Of a DNA stretch of 64,000 nt, positions 25,501 through 63,937 are shown in pieces. Source of the stretch: Branchiostoma floridae. Its lineage: Eukaryota; Chordata; Leptocardii; Amphioxiformes; Branchiostomatidae. The position numbers and the translations under genes are program-made. Each line of letters opens with the position of its first letter. The stretch's first letter is position 1. Location: assembly GCF_000003815.2 (NCBI RefSeq), contig NC_049995.1, positions 12,567,436-12,631,435 of the forward strand, written 5' to 3'. The notes beneath the pieces are model-generated. The model was not told where the DNA came from, did no database searches, and saw only the letters and a list, made by a program, of their open reading frames with translations.

Positions 25501-28500
25501 TGATTGTTTCAACTGCCGATTACATCAGAATGAAAGGCCACAAATACCTAGTAGGCTGTAGGTTTTTTTTACTTTTCCATGTAATATTTTCTCGTAATTC
25601 AATAAAATTTTAAAGTTTCATCCATTGTATTTTCTTGCTTTGAAATGTGCTAATGATTATTCTCCTAAAATGGCACTTATCCACACCTTAATGTACACGT
25701 ATATGAGACGTACAGAGGGAACTTTAAACATGTCTTAAGGGTGTTTTGGTACGTATTTATGACAACTTTAAGCTGCTAAAAAGAAAAATATAGACACATT
25801 AAATCCTCTTAATTCACACGTATATGAGACGTAAATAGGCTTTAGATCAAATAAACGTGAAGTTTAAACATGTCTTAAGGGCGTTTTAATAAGTATTTAT
25901 GGCAAATTTAAGCTGCTGAAAAGGCACCTAAACACACGTTATAATCCACTTAATGAACACGTATATGAGACGTAAAGAGGTTTTAGATCAAATAAACGTG
26001 AAGTTTAAACAAGTCTTAAGGGCGTTATAATAGGTATTTATGGCAAATTTAAGCTGCTGAAAAGGCAGCTAAACACACGTTATAATCCACTTAATGCACA
26101 CGTATAAGAGACGTAAATAGGCTTTAGATCAAATATACGTGAAGTTTAAACATATCTTAAGGGCGTTTTAATAGATATTTATGGCAACTTTAAACTGCTG
26201 AAAAGGCACCTAAACACACGTTATAATCCTCTTAATGTACACGTATATGAGACGTAAATAGGCCTTAGATCAAATATACGTGAAGTTTAAACATGTCTTA
26301 AGGGCGTTTTAATAGATATTTATGGCAACTTTAAGCTGCTGAAAAGGCACTAAAACACACGTTATAATCCACTTAATGCAATTGTATATGAGACGTAAAG
26401 AGGCTTTAGATCAAATAAACGTGAACTTTAAACAAGTTTTAAGGGGGTTTTAAAAATCATTTACGACATCTTTAAGCTGCTGAAAGACAACGGGAAAACC
26501 GGAAAATAAGGACTAACACGGACCTACAGAAAGACCACTTAAAGGCAATATTTACGTACTCGTATAAGTGGTGTATAGATCCGTAAAGGAGGAAAATACG
26601 TCAACATTACGCATGGGTTCAGCATCCTTAAATACCGTTTTTCGTGCCGTGTAACGTACAGCTTTGGACCTTTGGCATTGTGGTTAGTGCTTTGAATGCA
26701 CTAAACCACAAGGACGGCTGGGTTCGTGAGTTGGCGACCCGGGTTCGGCGCGGATTCGAATCGCGGGAGTCGGGAGACTGTAAATACTCACCTGTTGTGT
26801 TTCAAAAGTACATATTGGTAGGTGATAAACCTGCCCTCCACACGTGCAATCGTTGGTTAAAGCTATCTGGTGATGATATGTATGGGGGAGGGGTGACTTT
26901 ACTGAATTCTGAAGAGTTGCAAGGATAATCTAGCAATGTGGTTGGGAGATAAAAAGAAAAGAATAGCACCAGATATTTAAAAAAAGTATTTATCAATACA
27001 ATGAAGTTGATGAAATCATGAAAATATTGAAGTTACAAAATTGATTTTAAAAATTGGACCTGTATCTGTCCTTTTTTTAAATCAGATTTCATTGCCTCAA
27101 CACCATATTTCATTAGAACATGCAATGGAGTGTACTGAAATTTTCCTTCAATGCGTTTATTCTATTTCCTTTACATGCGTGGATGGGATTTTCGGCTGAC
27201 AAATTTAGTTTCTTTGCCTGTCGTAACCTACCATACCCACACAATACGCTCTCTTTCAACAATGTTCTTAGACTGAAAGACTTTTGTTACCTGCACCGCT
27301 TCTTCAAACAAAAGGGGTTAAGGTTAGAACAAAATAAACGTAGGTGTGACTCACACAACGACGTCGAAAAACATTATAAGAATAGGCATTACCTTCTCAT
27401 TTGACTGTTGTACCGTTAGAATTACATTGGTGTGCTTAGATAGATGCCAAATTACTGTTCTACGTAATTGATACTTGTGAAGAAAGTGTTTGATCTAAAA
27501 CGGACGAGAAAAAGCAACGCAGTCATAACAAACAACGATGCATTTGTTAATGAATTTTGCTCACAATTCCACAATATGGTGTATTGCTTTAGAAAGGGTA
27601 GACATTCTAACAGTGTGAATGTGTGGCTAAAATTCGGTTCATTCACACAGAAGGCAGTTTAGAGGTACGACTGGCAGGGGGGTTGAGTCGTGGGAAGGGG
27701 TGCGGACGTGAGACGTCCCTATTGATTGTAGGTTTTTTCACCAAAAGTGGATGTATAATACAGATTGAATCTCTTGTCATACCGTTAACTTTATAAAAAT
27801 ATTACCATTCGCACTTAACGAATTAATGTCATTCAACCACATTTCGTGTAGTTATTCGATAAATATCAGTACAACTTCTGTTGAAAGAGCCAGGTATGCC
27901 GGTCCAAAACAAAGACAGTTTGTACACAAATCTCACGCTGTAAACACTTCACACTACAAACCGAAGTTGCGCGTAAATATTGCTATGCAATGTCATAATC
28001 TGTCTGGATATGCGCCGTACATTCTTCAATCCAAACCTGGTGTGTTACGCCGTAAGGTAGCCTGGTTATACCACCCCCTCTCACATTAGGCGCGATTCGA
28101 TCGGACAACGAGTCTGCGAGCTCTAATTTACGAGGAGGCATGACCCTGATGCCGACGAAGAAATGGCAGAGTTCCCCCTTCCCGTCAGGGTCATGCCTCC
28201 TCTAATGTGAGGGGGGTATTACCAAACCCCAGCCCGATCTCAAGTATCTATCGTGCAGCCACGAAAGATATCTGAGGTTGGGGCATGGTATCCAGGCTAG
28301 CCGTAAGGAGGTTAACCGGGTATGCAATACAAGCAAACAAATATTGCAAACAAAAAGATAACCAAATCATTGACTTTAGGTCGTTCAGACAAATTCTGCA
28401 ATAGAGGAGAGAAAAGATATGTTTATCTAAACATACACACAGCTGAAATGTTATACCGACTCAAAATGCACTGTACCCGCCGCAGCTAGCCGACTGTGAC

Positions 28501-62600: not shown

Positions 62601-63937
62601 ATTATTGGCTCTATTTTTCTGCATTGACCAATGCTTGATACCATGACTGTGAAAAGTTATGTCAAGTATCAAAACTTCACTCCTGGAAAAATCTTACTCG
62701 CCTCATTAGGCAGGTGGGGTCAGTCATGGGCTTGTCCAATCAGCACTTTTACTTGCCCTTCACTGAGGCTACAAAGACAGGGTTGATATTGCAAGGCATT
62801 ATGCAATGCTGCGAGAATCAACTCTGTGTGGGAGGGTGTGATTCTATATCTAATAACCCTGGGCTCGAAATACATTTTTCTGCATACGTGCACTGGTGCA
62901 GGTAATACGGAAAATTACCTGCACCAGACAAATTTTACCTGCACTACTCTGAATTTATGAAGTATGGATCATACTAAAATTGTTATGGAACCATTGCTGT
63001 TTTTTCTTCTATTAACTTTATAGGTGGTAACAGTCAATGCAGCTAATAACAATCCACATACACCTACATCATATGACATTTTGTATAAAGCCCAGTACAT
63101 GGACCAGTGCAGGTTAGGTGCAGGTAGACACCAGAAATACCTGCACAGCTCCAATTTTACCTGTACTAACCTGCATATGCAGGTGGTATTTCGAGCCCTG
63201 AGTAAAGTTATTGACTGAGCTTGTCTTCCCTCTGTAGACTACGTCCAGTGTCCGCACTGCGAGAGGAGATTTAACGAGGCGGCAGCAGAGAGACACATCC
63301 CAAAATGCGCCGACATGAAGAAGAGAATGCCAAACAAAAACGTCGCAGACGCAAAAGCAAGGACAAACGCTAGAACACAGGTAAGGGAAGATCTGTAGCT
63401 ACAGCTGCATAATTGTGTAGCCACACCAAATTGATTTTCTGTTCCCTTTTCTATCTTTCAATCATAAAGCTATGTCATACACTAGATACTTAACATTTAG
63501 GTAACATTTGTAATTATAATACAGTTTGCAATTTGTTTAGCCTGGATACCAGACCCCAGCCGATCTCAAAAATATCTAAACACAATAGATATTTTTGAGA
63601 TCGGGCTGGGGTCTGGTATCCAGGCTTCAATTTGTTAGGCCAACCCCATCAGGGGCAAAGTAGGGGGGGATGGAGGGGGATTGATAGCAAATGAGAGGAA
63701 CAACAGTTTGAAACTTAAAGTGGCTACGATCATAGATTCTCATAGCAAATCGTTCCACATCTGTCTCTCAACAGTACCGGGCCCCCCTACCCGGGAAGAA
63801 AAAGCCAGCTGCAGCCAACTCAGCCACACGGATGACTTCCACTGCTAACAGTGCCCAGAGCAGGGGAGTATCCAGTGGTTATGGCCAGCAGGCATCTAGC
63901 GGTTATGGCATGCAGAACGGATCAAAGAGAACGACAG
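53629..63937 (+). CDS. ZC2HC1A: ZC2HC1-type double C2HC zinc finger protein, 5' part (runs off the window)
   Basis: Exons, all in phase: 53629-53656 (MAEYPDQYE), 60439-60512, 61193-61330, 62240-62378, 63238-63380, 63775-63937 (continues past the window). The first C2HC finger (CTTCGRTFVPEVL/EKHGRIC, split by an intron) is followed by KKRKVFDSGR, then WRQQHEEFIRSIRAAK, a PPPPPP linker, the second finger CPHCERRFNEAAAERHIPKC and a Ser/Gly/Gln-rich low-complexity tail. This order matches ZC2HC1A/FAM164A. Both fingers show C-x2-C-x11-H-x3-C. The molecular function of the family is poorly known; zinc binding is expected from the motif. Exon 4 was started at 62240 (T-N-P-V-K-Q-S-K-W), although AG at 62256-62257 is an alternative in-frame acceptor. 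A or B paralogue assignment is uncertain. Exon 1 is linked by phase only, over 6.8 kb. Confidence 0.9.
55276..55285 (+). other. Possible alternative first coding exon of ZC2HC1
   Basis: ATGGAAGATG followed directly by GTACGT would splice in the correct phase to exon 2 at 60439, giving MEDAFRASS. Support is only phase, donor and a preceding CAACG context; no transcript evidence. Confidence 0.22.
59711..59796. repeat. Short foldback
   Basis: AAGCCTGGAGTCCAGCC and its near-inverse GGCTGGACTTTAGGCTT face each other over about 50 bp. It resembles the TAGCCTGG family but has no target duplication. Confidence 0.5.
59803..60201. mobile_element. TAGCCTGG foldback element, 399 bp
   Basis: Left TAGCCTGGGTACCATCCGGA and right inverse TCCGGATGGTACCCAGGCTA, arms about 34 bp (continuing AGTAGTTCGCTCC). 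Flanks CTTCCATTA (59794-59802) and CTTCCAGGT (60202-60210) agree in the first six bases, suggesting a decayed 9-bp duplication. Interior non-coding. Confidence 0.8.
60586..60691. mobile_element. TAGC-type foldback element with 9-bp target-site duplication
   Basis: Termini TAGCATGAGTACCATCC and GGATGGTACTCAAGCTA, flanked by ATGGCCAGT (60577-60585) and ATGGCCAGC (60692-60700), 8 of 9 identical. The arms extend through GTGACC-CTGGCTCAATAC and its inverse. It lies 73 bp downstream of ZC2HC1 exon 2. Confidence 0.8.
61560..62257 (+). repeat. Tandem array carrying copies of the ZC2HC1 exon 4 acceptor
   Basis: Unit (127-138 bp) runs from TTGAATATGTGATTTGAGTG through GGCATTCCCAG, GTTTAGTA, GGGTTG-TTTTGAACTGT and TTTGATCGAAAGACAAA to GATGTTTCNAAACAGACGA. 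The last anchor occurs at 61665, 61803, 62098 and 62225, plus one truncated unit near 61930-62010. The fourth is the real exon 4 acceptor; earlier copies read AG/ACGACATCA or AG/ACGAACCCC and then meet stops. Confidence 0.85.
62859..63200. mobile_element. hAT-like MITE
   Basis: Left CTGGGCTCGAAATAC and right inverse GTATTTCGAGCCCTG. The interior is rich in ACCTGCAC and GTGCAGGT inverted repeats. The CAGGGCTCG right terminus suggests the hAT group, but I see no clean 8-bp duplication. It ends 37 bp before ZC2HC1 exon 5. Confidence 0.68.
63538..63627. mobile_element. TAGCCTGG foldback element with perfect 9-bp target-site duplication
   Basis: 90 bp, almost entirely two inverted arms (TAGCCTGGATACCAGACCCC, then AGCCGATCTCAAAAATATCT), flanked by CAATTTGTT at 63529-63537 and 63628-63636. 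It is the cleanest member of the family and homologous to the arms at 28058-28299. Confidence 0.88.

Follow-up and report, generated by a model that had tools for sequence, protein, structure and literature searches.

Short non-autonomous DNA transposons with TAGCCTG-like ends and 9-bp target duplications in the lancelet Branchiostoma floridae

Small non-autonomous derivatives are known among the Mutator-like elements (MULEs). According to the papers cited here, MULEs produce target duplications of 8-11 bp (PMC6446971), and the first three terminal positions of most arthropod MULEs tend towards conserved G/C bases (PMC13359780). A 2019 survey reports limited evidence for MULEs in chordates and MULE transposases as undetected in Branchiostoma floridae, and it cites an earlier paper that reported MULEs in this species (PMC6446971). 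Merlin transposons make 8- or 9-bp duplications and have conserved 5'-GG ends (PMC8101967). Here we analyze five short elements, E1 to E5, in a window of 64,000 nucleotides from the lancelet B. floridae (NC_049995.1, positions 12,567,436 to 12,631,435). An original prediction, made from the letters of the window, had assigned them to one MULE-like family of miniature inverted-repeat transposable elements (MITEs). Contig C17, which contains the window, belongs to a 513,431,437-base assembly with 431 contigs; all genome-wide counts refer to this assembly.

It is essentially certain that E1 to E5 are non-autonomous DNA transposons of the MITE kind. They have terminal inverted repeats (TIRs) with fixed boundaries, they occur as many short copies of which none is long enough for a transposase gene, and paralogous empty sites contain a single copy of the target. 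Their conserved ends, the duplications around copies throughout the genome and these empty sites bear out the predicted class of element. The best overall explanation, which we consider probable, is that they are lancelet MITEs that move by cut-and-paste, most likely with a MULE transposase.

Structure of the five elements

All five predicted elements were found in their places, and all have TAGC(C)TG-like ends (Table 1). Their 9-bp flanks, predicted as three perfect pairs, one pair with a single mismatch and one pair matching over six bases, agree at 9/9, 9/9, 6/9, 8/9 and 9/9 positions in the order E1 to E5. The window was scanned for pairs of TAGCCTG-like ends, 60-6000 bp from each other and with no more than one mismatch per end, that have 9-bp flanks with no more than one mismatch. 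This returned exactly E1, E2, E4 and E5; the control, 20 first-order Markov sequences, gave one match in total. No exact duplication of 7, 8, 10, 11 or 12 bp was present between such ends in the window. The 7-mer TAGCCTG occurs 10 times in the window, against 4.6 expected by chance. This is an excess of about 2-fold only; the signal is carried by the ends and the duplication in combination. A wider scan of the window for any inverted ends (11/14) with 7-10 bp duplications gave 12 rows, two of which are E4, and 4, 1 and 3 rows in three Markov sequences; E1, E2, E3 and E5 do not pass its thresholds.

Table 1. Positions of the elements, their flanks and the empty sites of E1 in the window.
Feature	Position	Strand	Description
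Left target duplication of E1	28049..28057	.	9 bp, GCCGTAAGG, flanks 9/9
E1	28058..28299	+	242 bp; asymmetric 89-bp TAGCCTGG MITE plus nested 150-bp element; E5-related
Nested insert in E1	28069..28218	+	separate high-copy palindromic MITE family; host TTA on both sides
Right target duplication of E1	28300..28308	.	9 bp
Paralogous empty site of E1	38473..38529	-	82% over 57 aligned columns; GCCATAATG once
Paralogous empty site of E1	38599..38653	-	86% over 57 aligned columns; GCCATAAGG once
Left target duplication of E2	51494..51502	.	9 bp, AAGCTGATG, flanks 9/9
E2	51503..51609	+	107-bp MITE; family nearly uniform
Right target duplication of E2	51610..51618	.	9 bp
Flanks of E3	59794-59802 / 60202-60210		CTTCCATTA/CTTCCAGGT, match 6/9
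E3	59803..60201	+	399 bp; from a high-copy family with members of ~400 bp
Left duplication of E4	60577..60585	.	9 bp, ATGGCCAGT; 8/9 against right flank
E4	60586..60691	+	106-bp near-perfect foldback; older, diverged family
Right duplication of E4	60692..60700	.	9 bp, ATGGCCAGC
Left target duplication of E5	63529..63537	.	9 bp, CAATTTGTT, flanks 9/9
E5	63538..63627	+	90-bp nearly perfect palindromic TAGCCTGGATACCAGACCCCAGCC MITE
Right target duplication of E5	63628..63636	.	9 bp

The elements had been described as five foldbacks of 90-399 bp with common TAGC-TG(N)GTACCA-like ends, and this description holds in part. In DNA folding four of them are clear foldbacks, with z-scores of -8.8 (E1), -12.3 (E3), -11.5 (E4) and -17.8 (E5). 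E2 shows no significant foldback (z-score -1.0); therefore it is an ordinary short-TIR MITE and not a hairpin. The TAGC(C)TG part of the end motif is common to all five, but E2 is devoid of the GTACCA part. The 242 bp of E1 include a nested insert. Without these 150 bp and one of the two TTA triplets E1 measures 89 bp; its interior is related to that of E5, and its ends, TAGCCTGGTTACCAAACCCCAGCCCGATCTCAAG on one side and TAGCCTGGATACCATACCCCAACCTCA on the other, are those of the subfamily seen most often in the copies listed. In six fetched copies of the insert's family the ends read approximately TACCCCCCTCACATTAG. TTA stands on both sides of the insert in E1 and of the copy L115, while the other five of the six fetched copies have, as judged by eye, no clean 3-bp repeat. 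We also considered E1 as two fused hairpins. This was rejected, since the related genomic copies, of 60-90 bp, are not interrupted, and the 150 bp in the middle of E1 belong to a separate high-copy family.

Genome-wide copies, families and empty sites

TAGCCTGGNTACCA N(30-60) TGGTANCCAGGCTA, a strict pattern for palindromic copies, matched the genome 123 times, compared with 0 matches in the reversed control; viral contigs also gave 0 matches. The first 40 distinct places listed among these 123 served as the set of small copies. They represent 39 independent sites, as L023 and L024 are one element with its flanks in opposite orientation. An exact 9-bp duplication surrounds 24 of the 40, and 29 match at 8/9 or better; one has an exact 8-bp and one an exact 10-bp repeat. 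When left and right flanks of different small copies were crossed, 0 of 1560 pairings reached 8/9. In the commonest small subfamily 20 of 22 copies are at 8/9 or better.

The other sets of copies were analyzed in the same way. In the E3 family (30 copies, one of them E3) the duplication is exact over 9 bp in 17 and at least 8/9 in 21, while 1/870 crossed pairs reached 8/9; these counts keep L108 and L113, in which the script misplaced one end, and L100, in which an end is shifted. The E2 family has exact 9-bp duplications in 16/20 copies, exact 10-bp duplications in 4/20 and no exact 8-bp duplication. Here L149 and L155 are one site on two contigs with common flanks, leaving 19 independent sites, and the only two matches among crossed pairings both come from this site. 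In the E4 family 4 of 20 copies are exact over 9 bp and 8 of 20 reach 8/9 (crossed pairs 0/380). A tally of this kind had been proposed with the original prediction, which was staked on a consistent 9-bp duplication among genome-wide copies; across the four sets of copies 9 bp is indeed the dominant length.

By sequence the five elements make up no fewer than four families (E1/E5, E2, E3 and E4), which have only about 7-14 terminal bases in common. First-look searches, the numbers of which are candidates and not confirmed copies, gave 1646 for the E3 family (~400 bp), 1046 for the E2 family, 301 for the E4 family and 1424 for the insert nested in E1; 40 were scored in each case. A majority sequence was drawn from E3 and 27 other copies (L108 and L113 left out), and these copies match it at 87-97% identity. 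The 40 scored rows of the E2 family, E2 included, are at 92-100% identity, and an identical copy of E2 is located on contig C2. In 21 copies the arms of this family are nearly invariant and variation is confined to a short central stretch. By this measure the E2 family looks young, and we infer that it was recently active; its near uniformity would make it a convenient marker for polymorphic insertions. In the E4 family the best full-length rows of other copies are about 75-83% identical, and to judge from these values the family is an older, diverged one. A tandem array of ~44-bp units that resemble the E4 arms adjoins an E4-like element elsewhere in the genome (G000:C8:12642963-12643408); this is perhaps a case of a MITE seeding a satellite.

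One transposase may move all five, as predicted from the common ends; the elements form at least four sequence families in which only some 7-14 terminal bases agree. The E2 family has a subterminal sequence unlike that of the other families, and a fifth of its 20 copies have the 10-bp duplication.

For 74 sites (the five in the window, 40 small copies and 29 E3 copies) the flanks were joined with one copy of the target and compared with the DNA fetched for the analysis. Uninterrupted relatives with a single target copy were obtained for three of the 74, namely E1 (Table 1), L018 (one relative) and L040 (three relatives). The original prediction had called for a single-copy target at orthologous empty sites. 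The single target is seen at these three sites; the relatives are paralogous repeats, overall 81-86% identical, and neither orthologous nor allelic. As far as it and the tally of duplication lengths could be taken, the prediction withstood both tests.

Transposase candidates and rival explanations

The elements are too short for a transposase gene; DDE transposases from genes elsewhere would recognise their ends in trans. The recognised ends would be TAGCCTG, extended in most families to TAGCCTGGNTACCA. Such an enzyme would cut the target with a stagger of 9 bp, sometimes 10 bp, and repair of the gaps would leave the 9- or 10-bp direct repeats. We infer both the supply of the transposase in trans and its identity; the most likely enzyme is a MULE transposase, because duplications of 9-10 bp lie within the MULE range of 8-11 bp and the GG ends of Merlin are absent.

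The MULE domain PF10551 has 27 matches in the genome, all of them above the cut-off. The DNA covered was 10.5-12 kb for five of these loci (0-200 N each) and about 1.5 kb on either side for the other 22. A credible TAGCCTG pair was not present within ~1.5 kb on either side of any of the 27 loci. Among ten translated frames from MULE loci, L049 has MULE and FLYWCH domains, and the chosen frame of L066 gave no domain match. L049, with L072 and L073, belongs to an element of about 4 kb (G000:C9:6718845-6722829) with ends GGAAGCAGGACGACTCGGACC / GAATGTCGGACGACTCGGACC, inverted over ~300-350 bp, and an exact 9-bp duplication, GTGTGTAGC. A longer scan row at L049 (10,694 bp, flanks 7/9) was discarded, as its two ends are unlike each other outside the motif. 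The 27 MULE matches and the FLYWCH element with its 9-bp duplication run against the negative result of the 2019 survey. If the MITEs are MULE-driven, the MULE system of this basal chordate is large and was active recently.

Several results weigh against this explanation. Flanks below 8/9 were found in 11 of the 40 small copies (two of which have exact 8- or 10-bp repeats instead), in 9 of the 30 E3 copies and in 12 of the 20 E4 copies, and those of E3 itself match at 6/9 only. The ends begin with TAG, and one G/C in the first three positions is a poor fit to the tendency of arthropod MULEs. None of the five MULE loci read at length showed a credible TAGCCTG pair. Three of the ten frames (L045, L056 and L068) have a ZSWIM1-3 RNaseH-like domain above the cut-off and may be host genes; L045 is among the five long loci. 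The longer copy encoding a MULE-type transposase, which was to be looked for according to the original prediction, did not turn up: in the DNA read, no copy with TAGCCTG ends carries a transposase gene. On the duplication length the predicted MULE assignment is plausible.

An undescribed or unrecognised transposase superfamily with TAGC ends and a stagger of 9-10 bp would account for the lack, in the DNA read, of a known transposase linkable to these ends, which do not have the GG of Merlin ends and are a poor fit to the MULE tendency. We hold this to be unlikely, as reading beyond 1.5 kb covered just five of the 27 MULE loci and 9-10 bp lies within the MULE range (PMC6446971). A related and equally unlikely possibility is that the families are moved by an unrecognised transposase or by a divergent lineage of MULEs with TAGC ends and a 9-10 bp stagger. 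Its activity in lancelets would have lasted until very recently, and the ends that it needs would be short enough for near-palindromes of 63-90 bp to be moved. Alternatively, several unrelated families could have converged on a TAGCCTG-like end and be moved by different transposases of equal stagger. Families with only 7-14 terminal bases in common would be expected in this case, and so would E2, which has no GTACCA, is not a foldback and belongs to a family of mixed 9- and 10-bp duplications. However, TAGC(C)TG ends together with the dominant 9-bp duplication in the window and in four sets of copies are a better fit to related transposases, and convergence is doubtful.

It is very unlikely that the MITEs are moved by a Merlin (IS1016-like) transposase. 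Merlin makes duplications of 8-9 bp (PMC8101967), which fits the 9-bp length here, and three loci in the genome match its domain PF12762 (DDE_Tnp_IS1595); two of them have open reading frames, of 325 and 356 aa. However, the ends here are TAGC instead of 5'-GG. The duplications of the E2 family are 9-10 bp long, with four exact 10-bp and no exact 8-bp cases in 20 copies; the small copies include one exact 8 in 40. The three Merlin loci (3.3-3.4 kb each) contain no TAGCCTG pair with a duplication, and the one TAGCCTGG-like end near one of them (L082) faces away from the gene. Searches for E2-type ends with a different next base gave 0 matches in one case and 1 in another; the latter is a 40-bp E2 end with no partner end in the 4 kb read. 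Finally, chance inverted repeats with chance flanks, or RNA-type hairpins, for which only the 2-fold over-representation of TAGCCTG in the window would speak, have a negligible probability in view of the window scan, the crossed-pairing controls, the many genomic copies, the one dominant duplication length and the single-copy empty sites.

Other features and comparison with described systems

Further repeats occur in the window. The ends of a 328-bp element at 51894-52221, CAGGGCTCTAGCCAGC, are inverted repeats that match perfectly over 16 bp, and its duplication, ATTACAGG, measures 8 bp; from its ends and duplication we take it to be a hAT-like MITE. Positions 2591-3434 hold a nested inverted-repeat cluster, including ends TAATCTCCAACCAGATCC with 9-bp flanks GGTTCGCAC/GGTTCACAC, and positions 22924-24416 a tandem array of a 115-bp repeat with ~13 units in two adjoining rows. 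The sole Rfam match in the window (42261-42344, 66.8 bits) is to mir-2060, a Branchiostoma family. The match is located within a tandem array of ~37-bp units (42198-42621); therefore it, and perhaps the whole family, may reflect a tandem repeat instead of a microRNA hairpin. Exons of Cys-loop neurotransmitter receptors are found on opposite strands at 250-660, which contains a 100-N run, and at 7338-7826. Four overlapping long open reading frames at 49137-50067 were discarded as an artefact of an 810-base N run (49223-50032).

Lancelet MITEs are a known kind of element, and the novelty of the present families is modest. Osborne et al. 2006 (Int J Biol Sci 2:54) reportedly dealt with lancelet MITEs under the name LanceleTn. 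By its title, as given in the reference list of PMC5803294, that paper concerns five B. floridae MITEs. The likeness to our elements is that both are lancelet MITEs, and one or more of the families may already be included there or in Repbase. Titles and abstract openings of the literature searched contained no mention of a TAGCCTG or 9-bp lancelet MITE. The FLYWCH MULE on contig C9 has the 9-bp duplication in common with the TAGCCTG families, but its ends are not TAGCCTG. Compared with MULEs in general, the present elements differ in that the TIR begins with TAGCCTG, the conserved end between families is only 7-14 bp and in the DNA read no transposase is linked to them; they are alike in a duplication within 8-11 bp, in a genome in which MULE domains are present.

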